A stretch of 64,000 nt of DNA. Origin: an uncultured bacterium. GTDB lineage: Bacteria > Bacillota > Clostridia > Lachnospirales > Lachnospiraceae. A program made the position numbers and the translations under genes. The stretch lies in NCBI GenBank assembly GCA_947383005.1, contig CANDBT010000006.1, positions 62,001 through 126,000 on the forward strand, read 5' to 3'. Positions 5,038-24,765 of this stretch are shown one piece after another (within the stretch, counting starts at the first letter, position 1; every line of letters begins with the position of its first letter). Under the pieces are notes generated by a model. The model was not told the DNA's origin. It saw only the letters and a list, made by a program, of their open reading frames with translations, and did not search any database.

Positions 5038-5170
5038 AATTCCAGATTGTAGTAACAAGTTGTTGTATAACTTCTTTAGTATATGTATAGAAATTACAAT
5101 CTACCAGGGAATTGCCCTTTTTAGATGAATGGGTTTGTGAAACGATGTTGAGTGACACTAATTTTAGAGA

Positions 5171-5203
5171 AAGAAGAGTAGAAAATTTGAATCTACTCTT
5201 CTT
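5171..5203 (+). terminator. intrinsic terminator at the right end of the element
   Basis: AAGAAGAGTAGA (5171-5182) pairs perfectly with TCTACTCTTCTT (5192-5203), followed by further T residues. It would stop cargo transcription about 70 bases before the right boundary, which makes expression of the downstream dctQ remnant and dctM from cargo promoters less likely. Confidence 0.8.
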
Positions 5204-5284
5204 TTTGTTACAAAAAGTGAATGTCGATTTGTGTGTATAGATATGCACTAAATTTTGGTAGGTAGCAGCGAGTACACTTTTCAT

Positions 5285-5800
5285 GAAAAGGGAGATAAGA
5301 TTTTGGAAATTCTCCTGGGAGTTGTGGTGGCAGTAATGGTGGCGGGATGCTTTTGGCAGGTGTTTACCCGCTTTGTCTTAAACAGTCCCAGCAAGTATAC
5401 GGAAGAACTGCTGCGGTATCTTCTGATTTGGATGACTATGCTGGGTGTGCCTTATGCCTATGGGAAGGACAGCCATCTGTCCATCAATCTGGTAACTCGT
5501 TCGTTCAGCGAGAAGGGGATGCTGATGACGAAGATAGGGATTGAAATTTTGGTTCTGTTTTTGAGTGTTTTTGTGATGATTGCCGGCGGATGGATTGTGA
5601 CGATGAATTCTTCCGGACAGATTTCTCCGGCATTACATATGCCTATGGAGCTTTATTATCTGTGCGTGCCTATTGGGGGCGTAATGATGGTGATATACTG
5701 CATTAACCGGCTGTGGGGCTTTATGAAGGAGTGGAAAGAGGGAGCGCTAAAGGCGGCTGTAAAGACAGAAAAAAATCAGGGACAGAAGGAGGGGAAGTAA
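5285..5800 (+). pseudogene. dctQ: dctQ 3' part: TRAP small permease lacking its N-terminus
   Basis: This 171-codon remainder encodes the four-helix DctQ membrane subunit, including the family-typical CFWQVFTRF region near the start of helix 1 and the EELLRYLLIW stretch. The frame is open back to a TTG at 5255 inside the element, so a protein with a foreign N-terminus could be made, but no ribosome binding site precedes it. The stop codon abuts the dctM start, so the two were translationally coupled. DctQ is required for TRAP transport in known systems, so the transporter is probably inactive or impaired. Confidence 0.8.
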
Positions 5801-7105: not shown

Positions 7106-7130
7106 GAGCAAGGGCGGTGGATGAAAGGCA

Positions 7131-7158
7131 TGCAGCCGGGGAACGAATTTCCGGCTGC
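7131..7158. terminator. hairpin between convergent dctM and AraC genes
   Basis: GCAGCCGG (about 7131-7138) pairs with CCGGCTGC (about 7151-7158). It lies between the stop codons of two convergent genes and could stop transcription from both sides, although neither side has a clear T-tract. Confidence 0.4.
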
Positions 7159-7164
7159 GAAATG

Positions 7165-8073
7165 CTACATGGGCGGCCGGGCGGAAAACCGGGGCTTGGG
7201 AACATTGGTGTATGTGACGGTGTTCAGGGTTTTGCGGTATTTTAACGGGGAAAGAGTCATGTAAGATTTAAAAGTGCGTTCGAAGTAGGTCAGGCTTTCG
7301 TAGCCCAGGGCGTTCGCGACCTGGGAGATGCTCATGTCGGTTTCTTCCAGATACCGCTTGGCTTTGCGGATGCGGTGGATATTGGTGTATTCGCTGATGG
7401 TATAGCCGGTCACTTCCTTGAATATCCGGCAAATGTAAGACCTGCTCAGGTAAAACCGGCCAGCCAGCTCGTCTAAAGATACCGGGTGTTCGCAGTTTTC
7501 GGACAGGTAGTCAGCGATGGCGTAGGCGGCTTTGTATTTGGGATTGTCGGAATCATTGGGGATTTCCTGGTGCTGGTGACGCACGAAAGACATCAGTTTG
7601 AAAAACCAGGCCAGGATTTCTAAGTCTATGCCGGTTTTGTAGTTGTGTTCCTGGTCAGTCAGGAAATGGCGCAGGGTGCGGAACAGGTTGAGTATCAAAG
7701 CCTGCTGTTCCCGATCTAAATGATAGACGCCATAATAGTCTTCCAGGAAGCGGACAAGCTGGAGAGACGGCCAGAGTTTATCGTAGGATTCCATTTTTTC
7801 TTTGGTAATGTAGAGAATAATGCGGTTGTGGCCATCATTGGAGCCAAAGTTGGAGCGAGTCATATGAATCAGGTTGGAGTTGACCAATATCAGGTCTCCA
7901 GCCCGGGCGATGTATTCCCGGTTGTTGAAAAAGAATATCCGCTCGCCTTCGACAATATAAAAGATTTCATATTGGGTGTGGAAATGTTTGACTCGCATAT
8001 CAAATTTTTCGTAACGAACCATTTGTTCTAAGGCGATTCCGTCTGTTTCGCCATAATAAGTTACTTTTTCCAT
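7165..8073 (-). CDS. AraC-family transcriptional regulator
   Basis: A 302-residue protein. The N-terminal cupin-like sensor domain (about residues 1-150) includes HFHTQYEIFYIVEG, the sugar-binding barrel signature. The C-terminal domain (about 185-285) has the two AraC helix-turn-helix units: LDELAGRFYLSRSYICRIFKE and MSISQVANALGYESLTYFERTFK. I placed the start at ATG 8071-8073 with AGAAAGG 7 bases upstream. It sits between the TRAP genes and the divergently transcribed GH105 gene, so it likely controls the pectin locus in response to a sugar acid. Confidence 0.9.
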   Translation of the reverse strand: MEKVTYYGETDGIALEQMVRYEKFDMRVKHFHTQYEIFYIVEGERIFFFNNREYIARAGDLILVNSNLIHMTRSNFGSNDGHNRIILYITKEKMESYDKLWPSLQLVRFLEDYYGVYHLDREQQALILNLFRTLRHFLTDQEHNYKTGIDLEILAWFFKLMSFVRHQHQEIPNDSDNPKYKAAYAIADYLSENCEHPVSLDELAGRFYLSRSYICRIFKEVTGYTISEYTNIHRIRKAKRYLEETDMSISQVANALGYESLTYFERTFKSYMTLSPLKYRKTLNTVTYTNVPKPRFSARPPM

Positions 8074-8513
8074 AGAGGGGCCTTTCTGTAAGTGTGCCTT
8101 CATGCCGCAGGCAATGAAAATGGGCATATGCGGTTATCTGTAAAGGGTTCCGGTGAACAGTAACGGAGCCGGGACTGCACAGGTTGATTGATTAGCGGCG
8201 GGGTTGAAAATAGTTATGAGATTATTATAATAAATGTGTGGGTAAAAATCCAGAAGATACGAGAAGAGATTGTCGGTTTTTGATGGCTGGTACAGATAGG
8301 GGGCAAGAGCATATGCTTTTCTGCTGCAGGCAATGTAAAACGGGCCTGTGAGCTTCCGGCAGGTGCGCACAAAAACGGGAGCGGAAGATGTCGCTTCACG
8401 CTCCTGTTCCATGTGGCTTGGCGCCGGTGCATTGAGATTTCGCAACAAGTCCTAAGAAAAGAGAAGTCGGACGCAGGAAGTATCGGATGGAGGATTGCCA
8501 GAAAGGAGAAGGA
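8074..8513. other. divergent intergenic region upstream of AraC and GH105 genes
   Basis: About 440 bases between two divergently transcribed genes. I see no convincing gene. It contains an AT-rich stretch (about 8210-8245, with TATAAT-like sequence on the minus strand) and short inverted repeats near 8379-8405 (GGAGCG with CGCTCC). It is the likely site of promoters and AraC binding, but no operator can be assigned from sequence alone. Confidence 0.4.
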
Positions 8514-9632
8514 ATGAAGAATATTGACAAAAAAGAATTGGATCAGAAACTAGGGCTGGTAATTGAGAAGCTGATGAATCTGGGAGGGCCGGAGGATGAG
8601 CAGGAACTGGCTGAAGGCGGAGAGAAGATTGGGTTTTTCCGTCGGGATTTTGGCATTCATGAGTGGGATTGGCCCCAGGGAGTGGGGCTGTATGGGCTGC
8701 TGAAGATTATGAAGGTTACGAAGCGGGATGAGTACCGGGATTTTCTGTATCGCTGGTTTAAAGATAATATCAGCGCGGGGCTGCCTTCCAAGAATATTAA
8801 TACCACGACGCCGCTTCTGACGCTGGCGGAGCTGAATGAGGATTATCGGGACGAACAGTTTGAGGAGCTTTGCCTGAAATGGGCGGACTGGCTGATGTGC
8901 TGCCTGCCTCGCACCTGGGAAGGAGGATTCCAGCATGTAACCAGCGCTAACGGGGACCGTCAGGGGGTGCGTCTCAATGAAAATGAGATGTGGATTGATA
9001 CTTTGTTTATGACTGTGTTGTTTTTAAATAAGATGGGGCAGAAATACCATCGGCAAATCTGGATTGACGAGTCGATCCATCAGGTGCTGATGCACATAAA
9101 GTATTTGTATGATAAGGAGAGCGGGCTGTTTTACCATGGCTGGACCTTTAATGAACGGAATAATTTCGGCGGTATTTTCTGGTGCAGGGGGAACAGTTGG
9201 TTTACCCTTGGGATTCTGGATTATATCGATATGTTTGAGGGAACCATGAATGCAGGGTTAAAAACGTTTATTGTGGATACCTATAAGGCGCAGGTAGCGA
9301 AACTGAAGGAGGTGCAGGATATAAGCGGGCTGTGGCATACGGTCCTATTGGATAATACCAGCTATCTGGAAACATCAGGCACGGCGGCTATCGCAGCGGG
9401 GATTTTGAAGGGGATTCGTTATGGGATTCTGGATGATTCGTATTTGCCTTGTGCAGAGAAGGCTATTCAGGGCATTTTGAATAATATTGATGAGGACGGG
9501 ACGGTTCTCAATGTGTCGGGAGGCACCGGTATGGGTTACAATGCAGAACATTATAAGAACATTTTGATTGCGCCCATGGCTTATGGCCAGTCATTGACCA
9601 TTTTGGCTTTGGCAGAGGCTCTTGCCATATAG
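8514..9632 (+). CDS. GH105 unsaturated rhamnogalacturonyl hydrolase
   Basis: A 372-residue (alpha/alpha)6-barrel enzyme that removes unsaturated galacturonic acid from the non-reducing end of rhamnogalacturonan oligosaccharides made by pectate or RG lyases. Signatures: WDWPQGVGLYGL near residue 46, MWIDTLFM near 155 (the conserved Asp region), W-C-R-G-N-S-W near 225 and YLETSGTAAIA near 285. There is no signal peptide, so it works in the cytoplasm on imported oligosaccharides. Start ATG 8514 has AAAGGAG at about 8502-8508. It heads a plus-strand run with the acetylesterase and isomerase genes. Confidence 0.9.
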   Translation: MKNIDKKELDQKLGLVIEKLMNLGGPEDEQELAEGGEKIGFFRRDFGIHEWDWPQGVGLYGLLKIMKVTKRDEYRDFLYRWFKDNISAGLPSKNINTTTPLLTLAELNEDYRDEQFEELCLKWADWLMCCLPRTWEGGFQHVTSANGDRQGVRLNENEMWIDTLFMTVLFLNKMGQKYHRQIWIDESIHQVLMHIKYLYDKESGLFYHGWTFNERNNFGGIFWCRGNSWFTLGILDYIDMFEGTMNAGLKTFIVDTYKAQVAKLKEVQDISGLWHTVLLDNTSYLETSGTAAIAAGILKGIRYGILDDSYLPCAEKAIQGILNNIDEDGTVLNVSGGTGMGYNAEHYKNILIAPMAYGQSLTILALAEALAI

Positions 9633-9656
9633 GATTGATGAAGGAGTTGGGGAATC

Positions 9657-10864
9657 GTGAAGAACCAGTTTCGTTTATTTATCCGGGAAACCGGGGGCTA
9701 TCCAGGCAATCTTGTGATTCCGGAAGTGTCCAACGGATTTGATGTGACGCTTCCTCCCCTTCCTTTTGGCATGGTGCCGGTGAGCTTGTGGTCGGAGCCG
9801 GTGCCTGCCGGAATTTATCGGGTTCGTATCCGTCTGGAGGCATTAGAGGATGTGGAGCGCCTTTATCTGTTTACCGGGAGAAAGCAACTGAGGGAAATCC
9901 TTTCCATGAAGTGTGGTCAATGTCTTGATCAGGTGTATAATTTGTCGCTGATGGAGATTATTCCCCGCTTTCGGGAGCAAAGCTATCCGGTGGAGCATTT
10001 GTTTTTTACTTTCTGCACGGAACATCCCGGCGCCATACGGGTAAAAGCGGAGTGGGAAATACCACAAGATAATATTACAAGAATTTTTTGTGCGGGGATT
10101 CCACGGTTACGGATCATGCCAGCGAACTCCCTTACCATCCCGGAGCCTGTTATGCAGCCTGGGGACAGGCCATGCCAGCGTTCCTGAAAGGGAATTTTGC
10201 CGTGGAGAATCAGGCGCATTGCGGGCTGACCACGGAGTCTTTCCGGGATGAGGGCCATTTTGCCATTGTAAAACGTCGTATTCGGAAAGGGGATATCGTC
10301 CTGTTCCAGTTTGGCCATAATGATCAGAAGCTGTCTCATTTGCTGGCGGACAGGGAATATCGGGAAAATCTGCGGCGGTTTGCCAGGGAAACCCGGGAAG
10401 CCGGGGCATATCCGGTATTGGTAACTCCGTTAGGGCGGAATATTTGGGATGGTGACGGGAGATATCTGGATTTTCTGGATGAACATGCCAGGGCAGTATG
10501 CCGGGTGGCCGAAGAGGAGGATGTCCCGTGGATTGACCTTCATGGATTTTCTGTGGATTTTATCCGTAAGAATGGGATGGGATATAGCCGCAGTTTTTTC
10601 CATCCGGAGGATTATACCCATACCAATGAATATGGGGCCTGCGTTTTTGGGGAATATATGGCAGGGCGGATGTCGGAATTGTTTCCGGGAATTTTGAAAG
10701 CGAGGAAGGGCGTGGCAGATTTTGTTCCGCCGGATGGGCTTTGGGAGAAGCTGGGGCTGGGCGGCCGCCGGACAGATTCGGGAAGCCAGAGGGAACAGTT
10801 CGACAATATGGAGAAATCTACGGCTGAGCTTTTGCGGGTACTTCGGAAGGCCAAAGGGGGCTGA
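9657..10864 (+). pseudogene. rhamnogalacturonan acetylesterase-like SGNH hydrolase (CE12), frameshifted
   Basis: Two overlapping frames together make one protein of about 400 residues. The first (GTG 9657, AAGGAG upstream) gives an N-terminal beta domain ending NITRIFCAG; the second continues with GDSTVTDH, the SGNH block I containing the catalytic Ser. Later blocks are intact: GLTTESF, QFGHNDQ (block III) and DYTHTNEYG with the catalytic Asp/His. The break is at about 10094-10098, where GCG-GGG-ATT should read GCG-GGG-GAT: one G is missing from a G-run. The enzyme would deacetylate rhamnogalacturonan. This may be a real mutation or a homopolymer sequencing error. Confidence 0.85.
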
Positions 10865-12830: not shown

Positions 12831-12880
12831 TTTTAGAGATGCCGAAAGTCGTTGGTTTTGCGGGCTTTGTGGCATTTTTT

Positions 12881-13065
12881 TTGTACCATAGGAAAGTGCA
12901 TCCTATGATACAAAACGTTCTGCGAGGATTGCAACACGGTGCGGGTTTGTTCACTAAGCTCATTGCATTCGCTAAGTGAGCCAATGCCTGCGGCGGATAG
13001 GAATTGTGTCGCTAAAGCGATCCGCCGCAGGCGGAGAATCCTGCTCAGCAAGATTCTTTTTATGA
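12881..13065 (+). repeat. dispersed palindromic repeat, copy A (long form)
   Basis: It starts with TACCATAGG (12884-12892) pairing with CCTATGATA (12902-12910), then a CAAAACGTTCTGCGAGG tail. After a variable part comes a second module: GCCTGCGGCGGATAGGAATT..GTCGCTAAAGCGATCCGCCGCAGGC, then a short hairpin near 13038-13056. The same two modules recur, in inverse orientation, at 31880-31985, and the first module at 17985 and 40014. It occupies noncoding space after the tRNA. Confidence 0.75.
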
Positions 13066-13223: not shown

Positions 13224-13781
13224 TTAGCCATAAAAAAAGCATCCAAAAGTTGCCGCAAGTACAATTAGCGCGATAGGAGGGAATTCTCTTTTTCGGATGG
13301 CGGAATATAAAATGACGGTCATGAGCAAAAAGGAAAATATTGCGCATGATGTCATATCGATACTGAAGGAGGGCTGCGTGGTGCAGAGAGTAATGGCCAT
13401 AGATACGCCTGTGGCGAGGATTACCCCCATCAAACAAGGTTTAATCCCCTTTAATATTGCCTGCATATTTTTATGTTTTAGGATGTTTTGAAAAATAATC
13501 GTGACAACCAGCAGAATGGCGAAAGAGGGGAGGACTACGCCGGTAGTTGCCAAAAGCGCGCCCCAAAACCCAGCCTGCCGGCTTCCGATATAAGTAGCCA
13601 TATTTACCATAATCGGCCCAGGCGTGGATTCGCTCAGCGCCACAAGGTTGGCAAACATCTCTTCGTCCGCCCACTGATTCGCCACGACTGCATCCTGAAT
13701 AAGAGGTATTGCCCCGTATGCCCCTCCAAAAGAAAATAAGCCTATTTTCAAAAAAGAAATTAATAATTCTAAATATATCAT
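13224..13781 (-). CDS. chromate transporter family protein, half-size (second subunit)
   Basis: A 185-residue membrane protein of the CHR family. The conserved N-terminal pattern is present: FLKIGLFSFGGAYGAIPL, followed by LVALSESTPGPIMVNMATYIG. Short CHR proteins occur in pairs and presumably insert in opposite orientations to form one transporter. Full-length relatives export chromate; the substrate of paired short forms in anaerobes is not certain. It follows the partner gene by 3 bases and shares its promoter and ArsR regulator. Confidence 0.88.
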   Translation of the reverse strand: MIYLELLISFLKIGLFSFGGAYGAIPLIQDAVVANQWADEEMFANLVALSESTPGPIMVNMATYIGSRQAGFWGALLATTGVVLPSFAILLVVTIIFQNILKHKNMQAILKGIKPCLMGVILATGVSMAITLCTTQPSFSIDMTSCAIFSFLLMTVILYSAIRKREFPPIALIVLAATFGCFFYG

Positions 13782-13784
13782 AGA

Positions 13785-14372
13785 TTAGCCCTCCGTGTCA
13801 TTCCGGTTTTTTGGTGCATTTTTTCGAAGAAGGACAAAGCCGATGAGGCCGCTGCATAAGATAAAATATATAGTAGAAATACGGATATTGATCATATTTA
13901 AGGTAAATGTGAGAAGAAAGAAAAAAATGGTAATGGATATCTGAAATTTCTTATCGGGGGACTTTTTTATCATTTTTTTAATCATTTTTGTGCCTGCCCG
14001 AATAATTAAAATGGCAACAGCTATCCGTATTCCCTTAAATGCGTGGGAGATGATTCCTACGGTTAATATGTTTTCAAAAAATTGGGATAAAATAAATATC
14101 AACAGAAATGATGGGGATACGATGCCAACCGTTGCCGAAACAGCGCCTTTCATACCGGCCAATTTGTATCCGGTATAAGTCGCGCAGTTTATGGCAATGG
14201 GACCAGGTGTTGATTCGGCAATTACCGTAACATCCATAAGCTCCTCGGATGTCAACCATTGCCTTTTTTCTACGCATTCATGGTCAAGCAGGGAGAGCAT
14301 CGCGTATCCGCCGCCAAAAGTAAATGCCCCTATTTTGCTGAAAGTTAAAAATAAGTCAATTATCTGATTCAT
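13785..14372 (-). CDS. chromate transporter family protein, half-size (first subunit)
   Basis: A 195-residue CHR-family half transporter with FSKIGAFTFGGGYAMLSLL and VTVIAESTPGPIAINCATYTG, the same motifs as its downstream partner. It has five or six hydrophobic segments. Its ATG overlaps the stop codon of the ArsR-type gene by four bases, showing translational coupling in a three-gene operon (regulator, first half, second half). Confidence 0.9.
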   Translation of the reverse strand: MNQIIDLFLTFSKIGAFTFGGGYAMLSLLDHECVEKRQWLTSEELMDVTVIAESTPGPIAINCATYTGYKLAGMKGAVSATVGIVSPSFLLIFILSQFFENILTVGIISHAFKGIRIAVAILIIRAGTKMIKKMIKKSPDKKFQISITIFFFLLTFTLNMINIRISTIYFILCSGLIGFVLLRKNAPKNRNDTEG

Positions 14373-14698
14373 CTGGAAAGATTCCCTTTCTTAAATTCAC
14401 AACAGCAAACGGAAATATCTCTGTTGAGATTCTGTGACTGTTCCTGCATGGAGCAAAAAGTACCGGCGAGCAAATCCATGGCTTCCTGATTGGGGAAGTA
14501 ATGGGTGTGGTAGCCGTATTTCTGGCTGCAGACAAGCCCGGCTTCTTTCATGATTTTTAGATGTTGGGATATCGCGGACTCGCTTATTCCCATTTTTTTT
14601 GATAAGGAACGGACACAATGTTTCCGTAAAAGTAATTGCCGGAGGATGCGATACCGCATAGGCTCGCCGATGATTTTGATCAGAGTGTCAGCATTCAT
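14369..14698 (-). CDS. ArsR-family transcriptional regulator
   Basis: A 109-residue winged-helix repressor. It has the ArsR helix-turn-helix (VRSLSKKMGISESAISQHLKIMKEAGLV) near residues 30-60. A Cys triplet (VCCCEF) lies near the C-terminus and could bind a metal or metalloid ion or sense redox state; this is inference. The start is ATG 14696-14698 with GAGGTAG upstream. It leads the CHR transporter operon, which it probably represses until an inducer binds. Confidence 0.85.
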   Translation of the reverse strand: MNADTLIKIIGEPMRYRILRQLLLRKHCVRSLSKKMGISESAISQHLKIMKEAGLVCSQKYGYHTHYFPNQEAMDLLAGTFCSMQEQSQNLNRDISVCCCEFKKGNLSR

Positions 14699-14717
14699 GC
14701 CACTACCTCTTTGTTTT

Positions 14718-14757
14718 AGTATATACTTAATTATAATCACTTTTTTGATTTAGTCAA
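14718..14757 (-). promoter_or_regulatory. promoter and candidate ArsR operator
   Basis: On the minus strand TTGACT (14752-14757) and TATAAT (14730-14735) are 16 bases apart. AGTATATACT (14718-14727), a perfect palindrome within TTTTAGTATATACTTAA, covers the transcription start region, and a related TTAGTATTGACTAA lies over the -35. These are good candidates for autorepression by the ArsR protein. Confidence 0.6.
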
Positions 14758-14946: not shown

Positions 14947-15702
14947 ATGAAAGTATCTAAAAAAATTCTCGCCGTCACGATGTCTGCCGTGGTGATAACC
15001 AGCATTGCTGCTGCCGGGACTCTGGCTTATCTGACCAGCCAGGATACGGCGGTCAATACCTTTACCGTAGGTAAAGTGAATATCACCCTGGATGAAGCAA
15101 AAGTCGGGCCGGACGGCAAAGCAGACCCCAGCGGGGAGCGGGTAAAAGAAAATGTATATGAAAATATCCTGCCTGGCGCTGTCCTGGACAAGGATCCCAC
15201 AGTGACCGTCGAAGCTGGCAGCGCTGACTGCTATGTTTATGTGGCAGTCCGCAATTATCTGGCCGATCGGAACGGCACAGGCGGCCCGGGTAATTGGGAT
15301 AACTGGTATGGCGGTTTTGATGTTAGCGACAATTGGGATTACAGTTATTTTATCCCCTATGATCCCGGATTCCCCAATAATGTTACCAGGGATATCTCCA
15401 CAGTTGAAATTTTCCGTTATATCGGCCCCGGCACTGAGGACGGCGTGCTTAAATCCAGCGACGAGGATATCGTTTTGGAAAGTGTTTTTGAAGACGGGAA
15501 ATTTTATATCTACAATTCCCTCACTTCAGAGCAGGTGGAAAATATGTATGGCGACAGGGTTGTGGTGAAAGCTTTTGCCATCCAGGCAGACAATCTGGTG
15601 TACGACGGCCCCAACGGGAGCGGAAAAACCGGGCTTGAGGCAGCCAATCAGATGGCGTCGGATTACTTTAGCAACGATGACAACTGGGAATACAAACCGT
15701 GA
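14947..15702 (+). CDS. SipW-dependent TasA/camelysin-like exported protein 1
   Basis: A 251-residue protein with the SipW-type N-terminus: basic MKVSKK, a hydrophobic segment, then AGTLAYLTSQDTAVNTFTVG, the cleavage and mature-start region. The mature part is a CalY/TasA-like beta domain (ILPGAVLDKDPTVTVEAGSADCYVYVAV near residue 75), the pattern of fibre-forming matrix proteins. AGGAGGAAC lies upstream. It is first in the operon, directly before the dedicated signal peptidase. The N-terminal 45 residues are nearly identical to those of the third gene, indicating duplication. It is predicted to form or decorate an extracellular fibre. Confidence 0.85.
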   Translation: MKVSKKILAVTMSAVVITSIAAAGTLAYLTSQDTAVNTFTVGKVNITLDEAKVGPDGKADPSGERVKENVYENILPGAVLDKDPTVTVEAGSADCYVYVAVRNYLADRNGTGGPGNWDNWYGGFDVSDNWDYSYFIPYDPGFPNNVTRDISTVEIFRYIGPGTEDGVLKSSDEDIVLESVFEDGKFYIYNSLTSEQVENMYGDRVVVKAFAIQADNLVYDGPNGSGKTGLEAANQMASDYFSNDDNWEYKP

Positions 15703-15761
15703 TAAAATATAAAGAAGAAAAACGGAATTTTTAGCACCAGGTACAGAAAAGAGGAAGACAA

Positions 15762-16280
15762 ATGAACCCGACGCTGAAAAAAATCTGGAATATGGCTTTT
15801 GGTATTCTGGCGGCTGCTATTGTGGTTTTGGCAGTCTTGCTGGCAGGAGTGCGGGTGATAGGCATCACGCCCTATGTCGTGCTCAGCGGAAGTATGGAGC
15901 CGTCTTATCCGGTTGGTTCGATGATTTATGTCAAAGCAGCGCAGCCTGAGGATGTGGCTGTGGGACAACCGATCACGTTCTATTTGGATGAAGGGCTGAT
16001 TGCTACCCACCGCGTTGTGGAAATCGACGAGTCAGGACAGTGTTTCCTTACCAAAGGGGATGCCAATGATGTGGTCGACGCTCCGGTGCCTTATGGCAAT
16101 CTGATTGGGAAACCGCTTTTTTGTATACCGGGGCTGGGGAAATTATCTGCCTGGATCGCCCATCCTCCGGGAATATATGTGGCCGAGAGCTTTGCCCTGA
16201 TTGTGCTGCTGATGATGTTTCTTCCGGAAGTGCTGGATATGGCGGATGCGGCAGACAAGAAAAAAGACGGGACGGAATAA
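15762..16280 (+). CDS. sipW: SipW-type (ER-like) signal peptidase I
   Basis: A 172-residue membrane peptidase. A first membrane segment (about residues 10-30) is followed by VVLSGSMEPSYPVGS with the catalytic Ser, LIATHRVVEID with His in place of the bacterial Lys (the Ser-His arrangement of SipW and eukaryotic signal peptidases), then FLTKGDAND. A second membrane segment lies near 140-158. It lies between two TasA-like genes and should process all five substrates encoded in the operon. GGAAG lies upstream of the ATG. Confidence 0.93.
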   Translation: MNPTLKKIWNMAFGILAAAIVVLAVLLAGVRVIGITPYVVLSGSMEPSYPVGSMIYVKAAQPEDVAVGQPITFYLDEGLIATHRVVEIDESGQCFLTKGDANDVVDAPVPYGNLIGKPLFCIPGLGKLSAWIAHPPGIYVAESFALIVLLMMFLPEVLDMADAADKKKDGTE

Positions 16281-16330
16281 AGGGAACAGGTCAAGCAGTT
16301 ACAGTAATTATTTAGGAGGCAGAAATAAAA

Positions 16331-17029
16331 ATGAAATCATCAAAAAAGATCCTTGCATTAGCTATGTCGGCCGCGGTTGTGACCAGTATCGCCGCCGCGG
16401 GAACCCTGGCTTATCTGACCAGCCAGGATACGGCGGTGAATACCTTTACTGTTGGTAAGGTAGATATTGAGATTGATGAATCAAAAGTCGGGCCGGACGG
16501 GAAAATCATTCCCGGTGAAGCTCCGGTAAAGCAAAACGAGTATGTCGATGTCCTTCCCGGCGACGTTTTGGATAAGGACCCGGCAGTAACGGTTAAAGGA
16601 GGCAGTGCAGACTGCTATGTCTATGTGGCGGTTTGGAATTGTCTGGCAAATGCATCTGGCCAGGATGTCCTGGAATATGTGGATTGGGAAGCAAATGATG
16701 AGAATTGGGAATGGGTGACGGAATACCTTCCCTGGGAAGCTCCCGCAATCGAGGTTTACCGTTATGATGGCGTTTTGGCTGAAGAGGGGTTAGTTAAGTC
16801 TTCAAATGAAGATATCCAATTGGGAACGGTTTTTGTAAATAATCAGGTCAAGATAAAAGGTTCAGCGACAGCGGACGACCTGGCTGATATATATGCGCCG
16901 GTGATTCTGGTGAAGGGCTTTGCCATTCAGGCGGATAATTTGGAAGCAGACGGAATGGCCGGGCGTGACGCGGCTGATGCGATGGCTGAGGAATTCTTTA
17001 CCAATCTTGGAAATTGGAGCTGGGAGTAA
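16331..17029 (+). CDS. SipW-dependent TasA/camelysin-like exported protein 2
   Basis: A 232-residue paralogue of the protein at 14947. The signal region (AGTLAYLTSQDTAVNTFTVG) is the same and the coding DNA there is nearly identical, while the rest diverges. The beta domain keeps VLPGDVLDKDPAVTVKGGSADCYVYVAV and the C-terminal VKGFAIQADNLEADG. Probably a second fibre subunit. AGGAGG lies 10 bases before the ATG. It is followed by a 281-base hairpin-rich spacer, which may set its mRNA level relative to later genes. Confidence 0.85.
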   Translation: MKSSKKILALAMSAAVVTSIAAAGTLAYLTSQDTAVNTFTVGKVDIEIDESKVGPDGKIIPGEAPVKQNEYVDVLPGDVLDKDPAVTVKGGSADCYVYVAVWNCLANASGQDVLEYVDWEANDENWEWVTEYLPWEAPAIEVYRYDGVLAEEGLVKSSNEDIQLGTVFVNNQVKIKGSATADDLADIYAPVILVKGFAIQADNLEADGMAGRDAADAMAEEFFTNLGNWSWE

Positions 17030-17039
17030 CGGACACAGA

Positions 17040-17310
17040 CGCAGAGTGCGAGCAATCCGGGTATTATAGGGGCCAAAAGTCTTTTGGCCCCAACATCTTA
17101 AAATAGAATTTTGGCTGGCTGCCATAGGATAGGCTATGGGGTAGATGGTTAGCAGTTCCGTATTGCGGTAGGTCAGCGCCGCAATACGGCTTTTATGCAC
17201 AGCCCCATGCAGAGGGAGTATGCCGCAGAAGCGGTGCATGAGGCGTGCGGTGAGTAGGGGGGAATTTTCCCTACTTGATTGGAGTAAACAACCTGAAAAG
17301 GGAGGGAAAG
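17040..17310 (+). promoter_or_regulatory. hairpin-rich spacer inside the surface-protein operon
   Basis: No gene seen. Three strong inverted repeats occur in order: GGGGCCAAAAG/CTTTTGGCCCC (about 17070-17094), CCGTATTGCGG/CCGCAATACGG followed by CTTTT (about 17157-17193), and GTAGGG/CCCTAC (about 17254-17275). The second resembles an intrinsic terminator, so it may lower transcription into later genes. The first and third belong to repeat families seen elsewhere in the window (34.68 kb and 31.80 kb). Confidence 0.6.
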
Positions 17311-17874
17311 ATGAAGAAAAAAGCCATGATTTTCCTGGTAGCATTACTGATGGCGGTAAGTGCATGTGCGGGCGGGACGCTGGCCTATTTAACGGATACA
17401 ACCAGTAGCGTGAGCAATACATTTACCGTGGGGAACGTGGATATTACCCTGACGGAGAGCGAAGGGACGAAAACAGCGGCGGACAGGGAATTTAAAATGG
17501 TGCCGGGAAATGAGATAAAAAAGGATCCGCTGGTTGAGGTTGCCGAAGGCAGCGAGGATTGCTGGTTGTTTGTCAGGGTTGAAAAATCGGATAACCTTGA
17601 TGATTTTATCCGTTATGAAGCGGCTGAGGGATGGTCGGCGTTGTCTGGGGAAGATGAGGTATATTATCGGGCGGTAAATGCCGACAGCCAGGGTAAAGCC
17701 TTTCCGGTGCTGAAAGATAACCGGGTTTTTGTCAGGGATGACGTCACAAAGGGACAGATGGACGAAATTGTCGGAGGGAAGGTAAAAGAGCCGTCATTGT
17801 CCTTTACCGCTTATGCTGTCCAGAAGGCCAATATAGCGACAGTTGACGAAGCATGGAAGCAGATAGAGCCGTGA
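17311..17874 (+). CDS. SipW-dependent TasA/camelysin-like exported protein 3
   Basis: A 187-residue protein with GGTLAYLTDTTSSVSNTFTVG after the hydrophobic signal, then NVDITLTESEG and MVPGNEIKKDPLVEVAEGSEDCWLFVRVEKS, the camelysin/TasA pattern. It is shorter than the first two and matches the SipW-exported families seen in Clostridium genomes. The start ATG 17311 follows GGGAGGG. It lies downstream of the hairpin spacer and may be a minor or capping subunit. Confidence 0.83.
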   Translation: MKKKAMIFLVALLMAVSACAGGTLAYLTDTTSSVSNTFTVGNVDITLTESEGTKTAADREFKMVPGNEIKKDPLVEVAEGSEDCWLFVRVEKSDNLDDFIRYEAAEGWSALSGEDEVYYRAVNADSQGKAFPVLKDNRVFVRDDVTKGQMDEIVGGKVKEPSLSFTAYAVQKANIATVDEAWKQIEP

Positions 17875-17984
17875 TCCTTTGATGGAGCAGGGCATACACA
17901 AGGGTTTCCGCAAAAAGGAGCGGGAGTCTTTGTGTATGTCTTACTGGAAGATAGCAGGTTTTCCGTAAGCCCTATGCATGATTC

Positions 17985-18112
17985 CTTTTTATATCATAGG
18001 AAAGTGCGCCCTATGATACAAAACGCTCCGCGAGATGCGCGCTTCGCGCAAAGGAAGATGGTTGTTGTCACAACCGCGCTCCAGCGCGAGTGTGCGCTAA
18101 GACGCACACACT
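17985..18112 (+). repeat. dispersed palindromic repeat, copy B
   Basis: TATCATAGG (17992-18000) pairs with CCTATGATA (18010-18018), followed by CAAAACGCTCCGCGAG as in other copies. The following part is unique here but also palindromic: GCGCGCTTCGCGC, GCGCTCCAGCGCG and GTGTGCG..CGCACAC. It separates two genes of the same operon (17874 and 18135), so the RNA hairpins would be transcribed in the polycistronic message. Confidence 0.75.
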
Positions 18113-18134
18113 TTAAATATGAAGAGGTACAATT

Positions 18135-18710
18135 ATGAAGAAAAAAATTATCCTTGCCCTGGCGGCAGTTGCGTCTTTCTTGTCAATAAGCGTCTACGGC
18201 TCCTATGCGTATCTTACCGCAGAGATAAAGACAGAGAATGTCATCACGGCAGGAAATTTAAAAATTGCCCTGATCGAAACTTCGTCTGCGGAGGATGGCT
18301 TTGGGGCGGCCGTGGCAGGCAGGTTAAATGGCGTAATGCCGGGAAAGACAATATCCAAGATTGTGCAGGTGGAAAATAGGGGGGATAATGAAGCTTATGT
18401 CCGTGTTCAGGTAAAGAAAGATATTATCCTGGCAGAGGGAAATAGCAGTCCGGATTTGAGTTTGGTGACGTGTGATTTCAACAAAGAATATTGGATTGAC
18501 GGAAATGACGGCTATTATTATTATCGGGACAGCCTGGAAGCAGGACGCCGGACAGTACCGTTGTTTGAGAAGGTGGCATTTGATGCTTCCATGGGAAATT
18601 TGTATCAGGACAGCAGGATACGCATGGAGATTAAGGCGCAGGCTACTCAGGTAGCGAACAACGGAGAGAGCGTTATGGAGGCCAAGGGCTGGCCGGAGGA
18701 CGGGGAATAA
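18135..18710 (+). CDS. SipW-dependent exported protein 4
   Basis: A 191-residue protein. MKKKIILALAAVASFL is followed by YGSYAYLTAEIKTENVITAGNLKIAL, the alternate signal typical of SipW substrates, and then a beta domain with VMPGKTISKIVQVENRGDNEAYVRVQVKK and DGYYYYRDSLEAG. The D-G-Y-Y-Y-Y pattern is typical of one SipW-exported family known from Clostridium perfringens genomes. It is directly upstream of the large VWA adhesin (15 bases), suggesting they work together. Confidence 0.83.
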   Translation: MKKKIILALAAVASFLSISVYGSYAYLTAEIKTENVITAGNLKIALIETSSAEDGFGAAVAGRLNGVMPGKTISKIVQVENRGDNEAYVRVQVKKDIILAEGNSSPDLSLVTCDFNKEYWIDGNDGYYYYRDSLEAGRRTVPLFEKVAFDASMGNLYQDSRIRMEIKAQATQVANNGESVMEAKGWPEDGE

Positions 18711-18725
18711 AGGGGGAATGGAGCA

Positions 18726-21700
18726 ATGAAATTTAAGGGGAAAAAACAGCTCAGCGCATTCCTGATCGGTGTTTTGGTGATGATGAGCGGGGCGCCGCAT
18801 TTAACCGTTTCCGCTGCTGTCAATAATGCAGAAAATCAAAAGGATGATTTTTTTGTCAGCAGCAATGGGACAAAATATGATCCTGCTTACGATCCCTATA
18901 TTTGGGATGAAGATATACAAGATTATGATGAGGATAGCGAAGAATACGCGGATTTGATCAAAACCTTAGCGAGTCCATCCGATTTTGGCAGTTGGCTAGG
19001 GGGGAAACTGGCGAGTCCGGCCAATATGGCTTCGGCATCAAATGCGGATCAGGGCGGCGAAACCGTAGTTTTTACGGAGGCCGGACCGTTCCTTGCGCCA
19101 GTATCCGCCGATTCGGCTCGCCGGCAGATGAAGGCGGGAATACCGGCAGGGGAAGATTCTGCCGACGGAAGCGGATTGATCCTCAATAAAACGGCTGAGG
19201 CGGATCAAGACAATGAGGGGGAATACCGTATCCGCCTGGAGGCTTATACTACAGGAAAAGGGATTTCTTCGGCAGAACCCTGTCCGGCAGACATCGTGCT
19301 GGTGCTGGATCAATCCAGCTCGATGGCTTATGATTTTGAGGGGGAATTTACGTTTTTGCAGGAAGACCGCAGGCAGTATGCGATGAAACAAGCGGTAAGC
19401 CAATTTATCGAGCTGGTTAGCGAAAAATTCAATTGGTCGGCTACCGATCATCGGATGGCAGTTGTGACGTTTGGAGAAAAAGCTTCTGTTTTAAGCAATT
19501 GGAATTTCGTGGATGAAGACGGGAAAGAAGCCCTTTTGGATGCCGTCAGCAGCCTGGATGATTTGCCTTCGGGCGCGTCGGATCTTGCTGCCGATATCGA
19601 AGAGGCGGGGAACCTGATGGACGGTGGTTATCGCTATATTGGCAGCCATACGGCCAGGCAGAAAGCCGTGATTGTATTTACGGACAGCGTGCCGACGGCT
19701 GCGTCCGGTTTCGATACGGAGATGGCCGATGAGGCAATCCAAGGCGCAAAAAAGCTGAAGGACGGCGGAGTGGCTGTTTATTCGGTAGGAATTTTCCACG
19801 GGGCAAACCCGGATGAATTATATGGAGACGCATGGAGACGCCAGGAACCGTTCCCGCATACCTTATGCACAGGGGAGGTGGGAAGCTGCTGGGGAGGTTC
19901 CTGGGTGTCAGTTCTGTTTGAGCGGAATGATTTCCCGGGAATCGATATAGCGGCAGGCAACCGTTTTTTAAACTATTTGTCGACGAATTCCCATGACGCG
20001 GAAGAAACCGGCGTCATCAGGGATCTGATGATGAAGGCGCCGGGATTTGGAATTGCCGGCCCGGGATATACCATAACAAAGAATTATCCTTGTGAAAATA
20101 ATGGTTATTATCTGACGGCTGACGGTCAGGATTCCCTGGAGGACATATTTACGTCAATCAGCCAAAATATTTCTGTTGCGGATATTGTCCTGGGGACGGA
20201 GACGGCAGTAGAAGACAGGATTTCTCCTTATTTTGAGTTTGCCGATATTCATGATATTTCGGTGACGACGGCAGACTATCAGGGAGACGGCAGGTTTGGA
20301 GAAGCATCAGACGCATTACCTGGAGAATTTCAAGTAGATATAAGGGCAGAGGAGGGGAGGCAGAGCCTGTCGGTAACGGGGTTTGATTTCGATAAATATT
20401 ATGTCGCGGAAGAACCCCGGGAGGTTGGCGGGGAGCTTGTAAGAGGAAAGAAGCTGGTCATCGAATTCAATATAAAACCGAGGGAGGGCTTCCTGGGAGG
20501 GAACGGAGTTCCCACTAATGGAGGAGAATCCGGAGCATATGACAGAAAAGATGGACGGGATATCCGGATTGGAGGATTTTCAATCCCGGAAGTGGATGTT
20601 CCTATTCCTGAGTTGATGATAGAAGCTTTGCCCAAAAATGTGTACCTGGAGGGAAGAATGAGCGAGGCTGATTATCGGGAAGGGGTATTGGTCAAATGCG
20701 GCGACACGGTAATTCTCGGAGAAGGGAAAGAAGAGCTGGAAGAGTGGCAGTCGGCTTACGTAAAGCTTCCGGATATTTCGGATATCGCTGTCAATTACCC
20801 GACGGGGAGCCTGTTGGACGATACGGGATATACCTTGTCTTATACGTTATTTCCCAAGAAGGCAGGTTCGGTTGCTTCATCGGAAACGGCTGTGAGCGAA
20901 ACGGCGGATATTCTTGTCTATAAGCCGGTGATGCTTTTTGGGGATGGGGAGATTTTCTATGGGGAAGAGCTGGCAGATGGTTATGGCTATGACGCTGACA
21001 AAGACCCTGTTGTATCCTGGGAGCATGAGGGGAAGGCTAAAACGGACAGCACGGTCATGGCTTGCCGGGAACCACGGTTTTCTTTTACTTACCGTTATGA
21101 CTCATCGAAGGTGGCCGGCGGGAAGGTAAATACCAAGGTTGTCCTTCCGGTGAAGGTGGAGGCAGTTGTGGCAGATTGGCAGCCCGGTGAAGGAAAGACA
21201 GCCGGGGCGGACCCGCACCCTGATGAGAGCGGGGAGAATCTGATAAGCCATGTGATTTTTGCCCACAGGGATTGTATGGGTACCGGATTCAAGGAAATGG
21301 ATGCATATCCCGGATACCATTTCCTGCTCCATGTTAAGACCGGGTCGCTTACGGTTAAAAAAGTGATAGAAGATGACATCGGGAAAGGAGAACCTTTTGT
21401 ATTTACGGTTAAAAAGGATGGCATACCCTATACCCAATGTACGGTTTTAGGAAACGGCATGGTGACGATATCCGAATTGCCTTTGGGAAATTACGAGATT
21501 GAAGAGGAGACAAATAGAGGTACGCTGGCCTGGCGGTACGGCGCCCCGGAATATGGGGATTTCGCCGCTCAGGCAGATTTGACCAAAGATAATCCTGCTC
21601 TTATTTTCACCTGTACAAACAGAATAGAAAATCGTCGGTGGCTGAACGGCAGCGACAGGACAATTCATGAAAGGCAGCCGGAGAAAACGCCTTACAGCCC

Positions 21701-21833
21701 GTTGGCCAGCGGTTTTTTGCGGAGAGAGGGAATACCGGGAGGAAAAGAGGAGTGGCTGAAGAAATTTGATGATCCGGATATGAGGCTGTATGGTGAAGGA
21801 ATGAGAAATAAAACCGTGGGAGGTGACCGGTGA
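18726..21833 (+). CDS. VWA- and Cna-B-domain surface adhesin
   Basis: A 1035-residue secreted protein with an ordinary Sec signal (VSAAV near residue 30). An acidic, low-complexity linker (35-170) leads to a von Willebrand A domain starting near residue 190 with the MIDAS motif DQSSS at about 195. Beta-rich segments follow, then a Cna-B-like domain near 870-935 (LTVKKVIEDDIGKGEPFVF). The C-terminus lacks LPXTG and any membrane anchor, which is unusual for such adhesins. It may be held by the fibre or by the LPRTG protein encoded two genes later. It is probably the tip or binding component of the surface structure. Confidence 0.85.
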   Translation: MKFKGKKQLSAFLIGVLVMMSGAPHLTVSAAVNNAENQKDDFFVSSNGTKYDPAYDPYIWDEDIQDYDEDSEEYADLIKTLASPSDFGSWLGGKLASPANMASASNADQGGETVVFTEAGPFLAPVSADSARRQMKAGIPAGEDSADGSGLILNKTAEADQDNEGEYRIRLEAYTTGKGISSAEPCPADIVLVLDQSSSMAYDFEGEFTFLQEDRRQYAMKQAVSQFIELVSEKFNWSATDHRMAVVTFGEKASVLSNWNFVDEDGKEALLDAVSSLDDLPSGASDLAADIEEAGNLMDGGYRYIGSHTARQKAVIVFTDSVPTAASGFDTEMADEAIQGAKKLKDGGVAVYSVGIFHGANPDELYGDAWRRQEPFPHTLCTGEVGSCWGGSWVSVLFERNDFPGIDIAAGNRFLNYLSTNSHDAEETGVIRDLMMKAPGFGIAGPGYTITKNYPCENNGYYLTADGQDSLEDIFTSISQNISVADIVLGTETAVEDRISPYFEFADIHDISVTTADYQGDGRFGEASDALPGEFQVDIRAEEGRQSLSVTGFDFDKYYVAEEPREVGGELVRGKKLVIEFNIKPREGFLGGNGVPTNGGESGAYDRKDGRDIRIGGFSIPEVDVPIPELMIEALPKNVYLEGRMSEADYREGVLVKCGDTVILGEGKEELEEWQSAYVKLPDISDIAVNYPTGSLLDDTGYTLSYTLFPKKAGSVASSETAVSETADILVYKPVMLFGDGEIFYGEELADGYGYDADKDPVVSWEHEGKAKTDSTVMACREPRFSFTYRYDSSKVAGGKVNTKVVLPVKVEAVVADWQPGEGKTAGADPHPDESGENLISHVIFAHRDCMGTGFKEMDAYPGYHFLLHVKTGSLTVKKVIEDDIGKGEPFVFTVKKDGIPYTQCTVLGNGMVTISELPLGNYEIEEETNRGTLAWRYGAPEYGDFAAQADLTKDNPALIFTCTNRIENRRWLNGSDRTIHERQPEKTPYSPLASGFLRREGIPGGKEEWLKKFDDPDMRLYGEGMRNKTVGGDR

Positions 21834-22429
21834 TGGATGGGAAAAAAAGGGGTTTTGTTTTGATCACCAGTTTGCTGGCCGTATTTCTGCGTACGGCCGG
21901 AACGACAACGGCTTTTCTCGTTACCAGGAGCGAGTCCATCGAAAATCGCTTTCAGGCCGCAATAGTGGCCTGTGAAGTGGAGGAAGAATTTGACGGAGAG
22001 GAAAAAACCAGCATTGTTGTAAAAAATACCGGTACGGCTACCGCTTACGTGAGGGTGAAACTGGTGAGTTACCGGATCAATGACAGGGGTGAGCATATCG
22101 GAGGTATGGCGGAAGTCCCGGCATTTTTGCCGGGGACAGGCTGGCGGGCTGACGAGAGAGGTTATTATTATTACCGCTATCCGCTCGCTCCGTCAGAGAG
22201 TGAAGAAAACTCGGAAACAACCGGCAATTTGATAGCTCCGCCTGGTAAGATGGTTTTGAAATTATTTCCGGAGGAAGACGGGGGCGGCAGACAGGTGGTT
22301 GAAGTTATTGCCGAAGCAATTCAGAGCAGCCCTATGGACGCGGTAAAAGATGCGTGGCCGGAAGAAATTATTGATTGGCTGTCTGCGGATATGCAGCAGG
22401 AAAAAGCGTCTGATGCTGATGGCATGTAG
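21833..22429 (+). CDS. SipW-dependent exported protein 5
   Basis: A 198-residue protein. The signal TTTAFLVTRSESIENRFQAA fits the alternate SipW type but is degenerate (F-L-V in place of Y-L-T). The mature domain has SIVVKNTGTATAYVRVKLVSY and RGYYYYRYPLAP, shared with protein 4. Its ATG overlaps the stop codon of the VWA gene (TGATG), a sign of coupled translation and matched amounts. GGGAGGTG lies upstream. It is probably an adaptor between the adhesin and the fibre. Confidence 0.78.
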   Translation: MDGKKRGFVLITSLLAVFLRTAGTTTAFLVTRSESIENRFQAAIVACEVEEEFDGEEKTSIVVKNTGTATAYVRVKLVSYRINDRGEHIGGMAEVPAFLPGTGWRADERGYYYYRYPLAPSESEENSETTGNLIAPPGKMVLKLFPEEDGGGRQVVEVIAEAIQSSPMDAVKDAWPEEIIDWLSADMQQEKASDADGM

Positions 22430-22440
22430 GAGGTGCGGGG

Positions 22441-23256
22441 ATGGAAAAAAAGAAAAAAGAGTTTGCGGCTTTTGTCCTCGCCTGGCTGTTTGCGGCGCTG
22501 GCAGTATTGCCGGTTCATGCGGCAAGCAGTACCGTGTCCTATGAAGGGGGCGCGGAGCAGTTTGTCCTTATTCCGTCAGACGGGAATCTGTTCCCTGATT
22601 TTGCGGGAGTGATGCCGGGGGACAGTTTGACTCAGGTCATTACGGTGCGCAACGGAGCAAGAGCCGACGGCGGGGTGAAGCAGTATCTGCGAGGAGAGAG
22701 TACGGATGAGACAGTGGAAGGCTTTTTAGAGCAGATGACGCTGGTTGTCCGGCAAGGGAATACGGTTTTGTCTGAGGATACGGCAGAAAAGACAGCAGGT
22801 CTTACGGAAAACGTCCTTTTAGGGCATTTTACCAATAAGGGGGAAATTACCCTGGAGGTAACTTTGCATATCCCTATTGAGATGGATAACCGTTTTCAGG
22901 AAGCGGCGGGGAAGCTGACATGGGTATTTACCGCGGAGGAGCTGGATGCCGGAAGGAATCCTTCAGGAGGCGGAGGAAGCTCCGGCGGCGGGAACGGTTC
23001 CGGTTCCGGATCGCCCGGCAATGGAACCGTGGAGATAGGCGAGGGGACTACGCCGCTGACGGGCAATCTTCCTGATGTGATATCCCAGATAATCCCGGAG
23101 ACGATCCGGGATGCGCTGGCGCCTTTGGCGGCGCTGCCGCGGACCGGCGATGGGTTGAATACAGGGTTGTGGGCTTTTTTGGCAATCGTTTCCGTCTGTG
23201 CTTTGGCCGGATTGGTGATCGTGAGAAAGCGGATGAGGAAAAACAGCAATAGATAG
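22441..23256 (+). CDS. LPXTG-anchored surface protein
   Basis: A 271-residue protein with a Sec signal ending VHAAS near residue 30, a beta domain with FAGVMPGDSLTQVITVRNGA (a TasA-like pattern without the alternate signal), a Gly/Ser-rich linker near 178-198 and a sorting signal: LPRTG at about 234, a hydrophobic helix and basic RKRMRKNSNR. A sortase should link it to peptidoglycan. No sortase gene lies in the window, so a housekeeping enzyme must act. It is the likely wall anchor of the surface structure and the last gene of the operon. Confidence 0.88.
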   Translation: MEKKKKEFAAFVLAWLFAALAVLPVHAASSTVSYEGGAEQFVLIPSDGNLFPDFAGVMPGDSLTQVITVRNGARADGGVKQYLRGESTDETVEGFLEQMTLVVRQGNTVLSEDTAEKTAGLTENVLLGHFTNKGEITLEVTLHIPIEMDNRFQEAAGKLTWVFTAEELDAGRNPSGGGGSSGGGNGSGSGSPGNGTVEIGEGTTPLTGNLPDVISQIIPETIRDALAPLAALPRTGDGLNTGLWAFLAIVSVCALAGLVIVRKRMRKNSNR

Positions 23257-24282: not shown

Positions 24283-24765
24283 ATGGAGAAGATAACCAGT
24301 TTTACGATCAATCATTTGAAATTGCTGCCGGGAGTTTATGTGTCGCGCAGGGACAAGGCAGGAGATACGACAGTTACTACGTTTGATATTCGGATGACGA
24401 GACCTAATTTTGAACCTGTGATGAATACGGCAGAAATCCATGCGATTGAACATTTGGGGGCGACATTTCTCAGAAATCACAAGGATTTTGCGGATAAAGT
24501 GTTGTATTTTGGCCCTATGGGCTGCCGGACCGGTTTTTATTTGCTGCTGACGGGAGATTTCCAGTCGAAAGATATTGTCCCCCTGATGAGGGAAATGTTT
24601 TCCTTTATCCGGGATTTCGAAGGCGATGTGCCGGGAGCGTCTGCCAGGGATTGCGGCAATTATCTGGATATCAATTTGCCTATGGCCAAATATATTGCCG
24701 GGCGCTATCTTGAGGAAACATTGTCGGTGATTGACGAAAAAAGGTTGAATTATCCGGAAGATTGA
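24283..24765 (+). CDS. luxS: S-ribosylhomocysteine lyase LuxS
   Basis: A 160-residue enzyme that splits S-ribosylhomocysteine into homocysteine and DPD, the precursor of autoinducer-2. It acts in the activated methyl cycle. The metal-binding motif HAIEHL, the catalytic Cys in GPMGCRTGFYL near residue 83 and the ARDCGNYL region near 125 are all present. Length matches the family. AAGGAG lies 7-8 bases before ATG 24283. It is followed after 19 bases by the sigma-like gene. Confidence 0.97.
   Translation: MEKITSFTINHLKLLPGVYVSRRDKAGDTTVTTFDIRMTRPNFEPVMNTAEIHAIEHLGATFLRNHKDFADKVLYFGPMGCRTGFYLLLTGDFQSKDIVPLMREMFSFIRDFEGDVPGASARDCGNYLDINLPMAKYIAGRYLEETLSVIDEKRLNYPED

Follow-up and report, generated by a model that had tools for sequence, protein, structure and literature searches.

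A SipW-linked gene set in Clostridia that may build a wall-anchored TasA-type surface fibre carrying a VWA adhesin

The stretch of DNA considered here, called the window, comprises 64,000 nucleotides (G000:C6:62001-126000) of the 4.99-Mb genome of an uncultured member of the Lachnospiraceae. Its positions 14947-23256 hold a candidate locus for a surface fibre: eight genes, all on the + strand, defined by open reading frames and family-model scans, in the order TasA-like 1, SipW, TasA-like 2, TasA-like 3, TasA-like 4, a VWA-domain protein, a further TasA-like protein (Sub5), and a wall anchor. This eight-gene set had been delineated in a first-pass annotation made from the sequence alone, and all of its members were recovered, as follows (aa, amino acids; nt, nucleotides).

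14947..15702, + strand: TasA-like subunit 1, 251 aa, with a SipW-type signal peptide; TIGR04088 30.6 bits (cut-off 19), PF12389 22.6 bits (cut-off 22.5)
15762..16280, + strand: SipW-type (Ser-His, endoplasmic reticulum-type) signal peptidase, 172 aa; TIGR02228 85.7 bits (cut-off 51.85)
16331..17029, + strand: TasA-like subunit 2, 232 aa; TIGR04088 30 bits, PF12389 26.8 bits
17030..17310, no strand: 281-nt gap with two hairpins, possible attenuator or terminator; hairpin scan and inspection by eye
17311..17874, + strand: TasA-like subunit 3, 187 aa from 17311; TIGR04088 26.5 bits, PF12389 24.5 bits (scanned from 17308)
18135..18710, + strand: TasA-like/BsaA-like subunit 4, 191 aa; TIGR04090 44.9 bits (cut-off 60)
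18726..21833, + strand: VWA-domain adhesin, putative tip, 1035 aa; PF00092 6.1e-15 over residues 189-364
21833..22429, + strand: TasA-like subunit 5 (Sub5), putative adaptor, 198 aa from the ATG at 21833 or 199 aa from a GTG at 21830; likeness through relatives
22441..23256, + strand: wall anchor with Sec-type signal, predicted TasA-like domain (about residues 30-170), linker, LPRTGD sorting signal, membrane segment and basic tail; TIGR01167 16.6 bits (cut-off 15.9)

The genes for subunits 1 and 2 (14947 and 16331) are a tandem duplication, visible as a 300-nt direct repeat of 71% identity. The stop codon of the VWA gene (TGA, 21831-21833) overlaps the ATG of Sub5 at 21833 in the string TGATG, as had been noticed from the outset.

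The processing enzyme, originally described as a Ser-His signal peptidase, is confirmed as such by its TIGR02228 score and its conserved Ser and His: in an alignment of 17 sequences (A7) the histidine of a THR motif is invariant and an SGSMEP motif nearly so. The Bacillus-specific SipW model NF046067 remains below its cut-off for this protein (60.1 vs 190).

The presence of five TasA-like proteins, also proposed in the first-pass annotation, is upheld by evidence of different kinds: three subunits (14947, 16331 and 17308) score above the TIGR04088 cut-off, the fourth comes near the BsaA model, and Sub5 is tied to the others through its relatives. The gathering score of PF12389 (22.5) is passed by subunits 1-3 (22.6, 26.8 and 24.5) and missed by subunit 4 (18.6), while Sub5 and the anchor gave no match in the PF12389 scan and Sub5 matched no family at all in the model scans. 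Subunit 4 gives the best score of the set against the BsaA family TIGR04090 (E 1.1e-11, 44.9 bits), yet below the curated cut-off of 60, and its relatives are usually encoded upstream of a VWA gene. The link to Sub5 is provided by the TasA3 and TasA4 proteins of the window, which as queries match the Sub5 copy of a related locus (L015) at 2.4e-7 and 1.6e-6. In comparisons of profiles from hand-chosen alignments, that of subunits 1-3 (A5) is clearly kin to that of subunit 4 and Sub5 (A6), with 99.8% and E 2.6e-29. Elsewhere in the same genome, no module genes were seen around a weak TIGR04088 match (L020).

The PF12389 matches are confined to the N-terminal 50-90 residues of the subunits. This family is named after the camelysin metallo-endopeptidase, which would favour a set of secreted metalloproteases instead of a fibre; that reading is extremely improbable, given the N-terminal limit of the match and the role of Bacillus subtilis TasA as a structural fibre, as described in the available part of PMC9674648.

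The mature N-termini of the TasA-like proteins share the motif A[YW]LT....V.NTFT, present in 41 pattern-selected segments with identical spacing in 34. Structural matches are scarce. Profile A5 found nothing in the PDB at E <= 1, single-sequence phmmer searches of the PDB with subunit 4 and with the VWA protein gave no matches, and the sole match of profile A6 was the archaeal AbpX (9sj2), at a non-significant E of 0.6.

The last gene of the set had been annotated as an LPRTG protein with a TasA-like domain, and both parts of this description hold. The C-terminus is that of an LPXTG-type substrate, with LPRTGD, a hydrophobic stretch and a basic tail, and TIGR01167 is exceeded by a small amount (16.6 vs 15.9). 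The N-terminal domain is, judging from profile comparison, TasA-like: the anchor alignment (A4) matches A6 with 97.7% and E 1.6e-12, the 110 aligned columns spanning the proline box to the last strands; a SipW control gave 5.0%. Profiles built in the course of the analysis gave 97.4% for anchor against TasA4 and 4.6, 2.0 and 0.3% for controls; the built subunit profiles absorbed one another, making their mutual likeness partly circular, and the anchor profile held anchors only. Against the PDB, the anchor profile marginally matched B. subtilis TasA (8aur and 5of1, E 0.064-0.078) over PGDKLT and EDFLSQ, and three other matches covered only the signal peptide. These E-values by themselves are unconvincing, although the matching register helps the TasA-like assignment. 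A sorting-signal-like tail ends 49 of 52 anchor genes. The three others are L038, cut by the contig end, L116, which has none, and L132, where PKTGD and a membrane-like stretch failed the hydrophobicity rule. The anchor and VWA tail counts exclude L102 and L103, which duplicate L036 and L035, as well as anchors below 45 bits (L049, L052 and the second frame of L031).

The large protein had been called a VWA/Cna-B adhesin, of which the first half stands (PF00092, 6.1e-15); the match of its SpaA-like/Cna-B part, residues 875-928, is weak and below cut-off (E 0.04). The DxSxS motif and a later Asp, which we take to be the residues of the metal ion-dependent adhesion site, are invariant across five members of the VWA family. 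A sorting signal is absent from the VWA protein of the window and from all 40 VWA reading frames linked to SipW/TasA genes (0/40; the end is intact in 36).

Whether these genes belong together was addressed with the post-VWA region of the VWA protein, the alignment of which (A3) was used to query a species-level genome collection; the resulting loci were annotated in six frames with profiles built in this analysis. The search returned 34 named loci. No match was obtained when contigs were searched with the single VWA protein of the window, nor when a plasmid collection was searched with the VWA protein. In 26 of the 34 loci Sub5 is the next module gene, at most 300 nt after the VWA gene. Of the remaining eight, two (L046 and L054) end within the VWA gene and one (L050) has SipW placed between the two; in L048, L049, L052, L058 and L059, neither SipW nor a TasA-like gene was seen. 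An anchor was found in 24 of the 34 and SipW (at least 100 bits) in 19, several contigs being short. Usually SipW is followed by several TasA-like genes, a TasA4-like gene, sometimes a protein of about 220 aa, VWA, Sub5 and anchor, with a sortase in ten loci; in L050 and L056 the parts are arranged differently and a BTAD-type regulator is present, and L038 has two VWA adhesin genes in tandem within one fibre locus (3875-6868 and 7096-10059).

The hosts of these loci include Lachnospiraceae, Oscillospiraceae, Christensenellaceae and others, among them the isolates Cuneatibacter caecimuris, Lactonifactor longoviformis and Ohessyouella blattaphilus, and some names of metagenome-assembled genomes, such as Desulfobulbus (L040) and Coriobacteriia (L033), may reflect binning errors. 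The frequency is low, with VWA homologues in 6 of 250 genomes of the family and A3 matches in 11 of 392 genomes of the order, the genome of the window included in both. The first-pass annotation had made a shared structure depend on the genes being conserved together; with Sub5 following VWA in 26/34 loci and the order recurring across distant Clostridia, the set survives, and the finding is more general than was then supposed.

A second search did without the VWA query, although its anchor profile A4 was itself built from anchors next to VWA genes. A4 matches 27 of 391 genomes of the class at E <= 1e-6, including the genome of the window and two sources of the profile (G945 and G965), and the SipW profile A7 matches 99 of 391 at E <= 1e-12. 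All 27 anchor genomes are SipW-positive (hypergeometric 4e-18, relatedness ignored). Among the matches listed, with 80 SipW places, SipW lies within 12 kb of at least 31 of 35 anchor places, the exceptions being G864:C23, G848:C40 (21 kb), G913:C26 and G153:C14:154270 (24 kb); conversely, half of the 50 best SipW places (25) lie no more than 12 kb from an anchor match. Some A4 places are not true anchors, since L113 (G720) and L134 (G841) have no frame best matched by the anchor profile and L116 (G766) has no sorting tail. The A4 loci inspected do not include the long frames in G785, G941 and G958.

Many of the fetched anchor loci gave no VWA match, and the core therefore consists of SipW, TasA-like proteins and a wall-sorted TasA-like protein, with the adhesin as a frequent addition. 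Within the genus of the window, the three other genomes with A4 matches contribute four places, of which both in G983 bear a VWA gene and those in G978 and G981 are of the form without it. The single-contig genome G853 has, at L111, two tandem minimal sets (large protein, Sub5-like, LPSTG anchor, SipW, TasA4-like) with no recognised VWA match, and in the class searches L110 (G963) has one in-frame stop within its SipW match and one within its anchor match.

The frequent absence of the VWA gene would agree with a looser arrangement, where the TasA-like proteins form a biofilm matrix of the BsaA kind and the VWA protein and anchor are separate and merely co-expressed. BsaA polymers, according to the available part of PMC7395162, are mainly extracellular and sortase-independent, which also fits. 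Such an arrangement is nevertheless fairly unlikely: the anchor has the predicted fold type of subunit 4 and Sub5 and lies in SipW loci at no fewer than 31 of the 35 places, and a VWA protein devoid of a sorting signal would be lost unless bound to something.

Eleven loci (L026-L030, L032-L034, L037, L044 and L106) have an adjacent, divergent sortase beside the anchor, with PF04203 found directly in nine of them and through second copies (L015 and L016) in L029 and L030. The anchors of these 11 loci all end in TGQxxWP, usually LIQTGQLNWP, as opposed to 0 of 38 other anchors. Six of the 11 linked sortases were scanned with the NCBIfam class models and all fall under every class cut-off, their likeness to class C being 35-55 bits with a cut-off of 160. 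Four more loci have other sortases nearby, class B-like in L129 and L136 and class C-like in L121 (9982-10695) and L135 (8423-9115). The latter two, at 143-147 bits and thus also under the 160-bit cut-off, lie beside TasA-like anchors with LPKTGE and represent a second sortase association. On the VWA tree, the linked sortase and the TGQ signal agree in 27 of 27 rows, with five changes, of which only two independent pairs fall on supported branches (p 0.5), and shared descent may therefore explain the correlation. No sortase is present in the locus of the window; five are encoded elsewhere in the genome, and each has the class B model as its best match, two of them over its cut-off. The available part of PMC5118464 describes a SrtB, that of Clostridioides difficile, that cuts (S/P)PXTG and not LPXTG.

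The VWA family leads to sortases as well. Of five VWA proteins outside SipW/TasA loci, two (L048 and L049) have a sorting signal of their own, L052 shows a sorting-like tail in the reading frame next to that of the VWA gene, and L058 and L059 show none. L048 and L049 have a pilus-like order: an S26 signal peptidase comes first, followed by a DUF7601 protein, which in L048 has an FctA domain, then a protein with a sortase domain, a small protein, and VWA with its sorting signal. This distribution suggests that a shared tip module lost wall sorting once it was able to dock on another fibre, the direction of change being inferred.

The locus had initially been considered a possible alternative to sortase-built pili, an idea that is not supported in that form: it looks hybrid, because the anchor has a sortase signal, 11 relatives have an adjacent sortase, and the adhesin family also occurs in sortase-pilus loci. 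The sortase is part of the system, not an alternative to it. A further reading is a sortase-built pilus, in which a class C-like sortase would join the anchor or the VWA protein into a covalent polymer and the TasA-like proteins would be accessories. In line with this, Cna-B domains occur in both of the sortase-linked anchors that were scanned (L015 and L016) and the linked sortases that were scanned resemble class C, albeit below cut-off. A covalent pilus is, however, distinctly improbable, given that the anchor alone bears a sorting signal in the window, that the VWA proteins of SipW/TasA loci have none, and that the locus is without a sortase, the five of the genome being class B-like.

Taken together, the locus probably builds a wall-anchored TasA-type surface fibre carrying an adhesin, at a rough probability of 0.6. 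The gene set, its homologies and order, the sorting signals, the sortase linkage and the adhesin without sorting signal are what the sequences themselves contain; donor-strand polymerisation, the positions of base and tip, and binding, also to host or mucus, are inferred. In B. subtilis, as far as the available parts of the reports go, TasA polymerises through an N-terminal donor strand (PMC9674648), and TapA, with an N-terminus near-identical to that of TasA, starts the chain as a donor-only initiator (PMC10151520). By analogy, SipW would release the five TasA-like proteins, and the short N-terminal strand of each mature subunit, typically with the motif described above and placed like the donor strand of B. 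subtilis TasA, would pass to its neighbour. The TasA-like domain of the anchor could join the same chain, and sortase would bond its C-terminus to peptidoglycan, forming the base. The VWA protein would be exported by the ordinary Sec route and join without a covalent bond; Sub5 or subunit 4 would most likely connect it to the far end, where its VWA domain would bind a surface.

Several observations weigh against the wall-anchored fibre. The locus of the window is an atypical copy, with no adjacent sortase and with a VWA protein that has a long branch and a diverged C-terminal tail, and A4 matches only 4 of 24 genomes of its genus, making the locus sporadic. The likeness of the anchor to A5 is short and weak (56%, 20 columns, E 1e-4), its PDB matches are marginal, and A5 has none. 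Homology and gene order are all that places the VWA protein at a putative tip, and the C. perfringens BsaA fibres lack tight wall attachment, with deletion of the neighbouring srtB being without effect (available part of PMC7395162). The long VWA branch, the diverged C-terminus and the sporadic occurrence could also mean that the window holds a decaying copy, which lost its sortase and adhesin tail and no longer functions; this is improbable, since the eight frames are open, the signals intact, the LPRTGD tail and membrane segment present, and five class B-like sortases are available in the genome.

A more elaborate version of the wall-anchored fibre can be sketched, tentative and somewhat unlikely as a whole. 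The non-covalent donor-strand fibre would be a Gram-positive appendage of a kind of its own and would have its base fixed to the wall by a dedicated, unclassified sortase reading LI[QHF]TGQ..WP (in the form of the 11 loci), and its VWA tip would have been exchanged with sortase pili, losing its sorting signal and docking by a donor-strand-like C-terminal tail, WLNGFS.VV.NIFG. The tail was sought with a donor-strand matrix of 14 positions from 34 motif-selected subunit N-termini, the best window of which falls among the last 40 residues of 10 of the 34 VWA proteins, compared with 1.4 of 34 expected if uniform and none for the reversed matrix. Nonetheless, 12.2% of the best windows in 139 control proteins also fall in that C-terminal stretch, one control scores 7.6 against 6.9 for the best VWA tail, two of the ten windows (L039 and L051) are something other than the WL motif, the proteins share ancestry, and the tail of the window's own protein is unmatched. 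With statistics this weak, a VWA tail imitating a donor strand is put forward as an idea only.

The expression of the eight genes as one operon had also been claimed, and here the same-strand gene series stands, with a single transcript remaining unproven. Two gaps of about 260-280 nt break the series, 17030-17310 and 17875-18134. The first has a hairpin at 17158-17189, found in the scan, and a second at 17069-17091, seen by eye; the second gap holds one of two window copies (12878-12926 and 17986-18034) of a palindromic intergenic repeat, CATAGGAAAGTGC..CCTATGATACAAAACG, which occurs at 41 places in the genome with at most three mismatches (reversed control pattern, 0). Neither a single transcript nor termination is established, because the hairpin scan does no better than shuffles (11 matches vs 9.5 +/- 3.1, no excess); one transcript for all eight genes is possible. 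The C. perfringens sipW-bsa operon has, in the available part of PMC7395162, a predicted terminator with read-through after bsaA. The gene downstream of the fibre locus, at 23516, has a good promoter-like site of its own.

Around the fibre locus, inspection by eye indicates a ChrA-like transporter pair and an ArsR-like regulator upstream (13224-14740) and a LuxS-like protein just 3' (24283-24765). Farther away, the window has two convergent arylsulfate sulfotransferase genes, at 38025-39941 (+) and 40073-41950 (-), both matching PF05935 (E 4e-105 and 6e-99), and an AT-rich stretch at 2001-6000 (31-36% GC vs 42-53% for most of the window), in which a frame of 394 aa (2909-4093) lies between TRAP transporter genes and matches no Pfam family at E 1e-4.

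Among known systems, the TasA-like part by itself has a described precedent in the BsaA fibres of C. perfringens (PMC7395162, in its available part). The first-pass annotation knew of no wall-anchored, adhesin-bearing TasA-like structure, and none turned up in full-text searches of open papers (subscription papers and preprints lying largely outside), nor was a description of the TGQ signal; the parts are known singly, and their combination was not found described. The comparisons with Bacillus and Clostridium below concern the available parts of the cited reports. The C. perfringens sipW-bsaABCRSD set likewise unites SipW and a TasA-like fibre former, whose model subunit 4 resembles below cut-off. 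It differs in that BsaA is not tightly bound to the wall, srtB is dispensable, and no VWA or LPXTG partner is mentioned (PMC7395162), a separation drawn from description, with the BsaB, BsaC and BsaD sequences uncompared; one of these might be a relative of the fibre module. The B. subtilis tapA-sipW-tasA operon shares SipW processing and, by eye and by a marginal profile match, the placement of the N-terminal strand and proline box, whereas no sortase-anchored base or VWA adhesin is mentioned there (PMC9674648, PMC10151520). The TasA/CalY/CapP system of B. cereus also combines several TasA paralogues with a wall-associated helper (PMC13082335), but CapP uses a disordered C-domain for anchoring, in a system termed sortase-independent (PMC13082335). 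The archaeal bundling pili with AbpX (PDB 9sj2) enter the comparison only through the non-significant match of the subunit 4/Sub5 profile and are archaeal.

The sortase pili with VWA (L048 and L049) have in common with the window a homologous VWA protein and the S26 signal peptidase, and bear a sortase in the locus. Their backbone candidate is FctA/DUF7601 (L048) or DUF7601 (L049), whereas the candidates of the window are TasA-like and its VWA protein has no sorting signal. If the wall-anchored fibre is real, it would explain how some TasA-type fibres are retained on the cell and supply them with a defined base and an adhesin, involving a sortase whose recognition signal seems to be private. 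The attachment of TasA fibres to cells would then be testable with isolates, for example Cuneatibacter caecimuris DSM 29486 or Lactonifactor longoviformis DSM 17459, and a widespread appendage of gut Clostridia would unite SipW/TasA matrix fibres with sortase anchoring, two systems treated separately so far.

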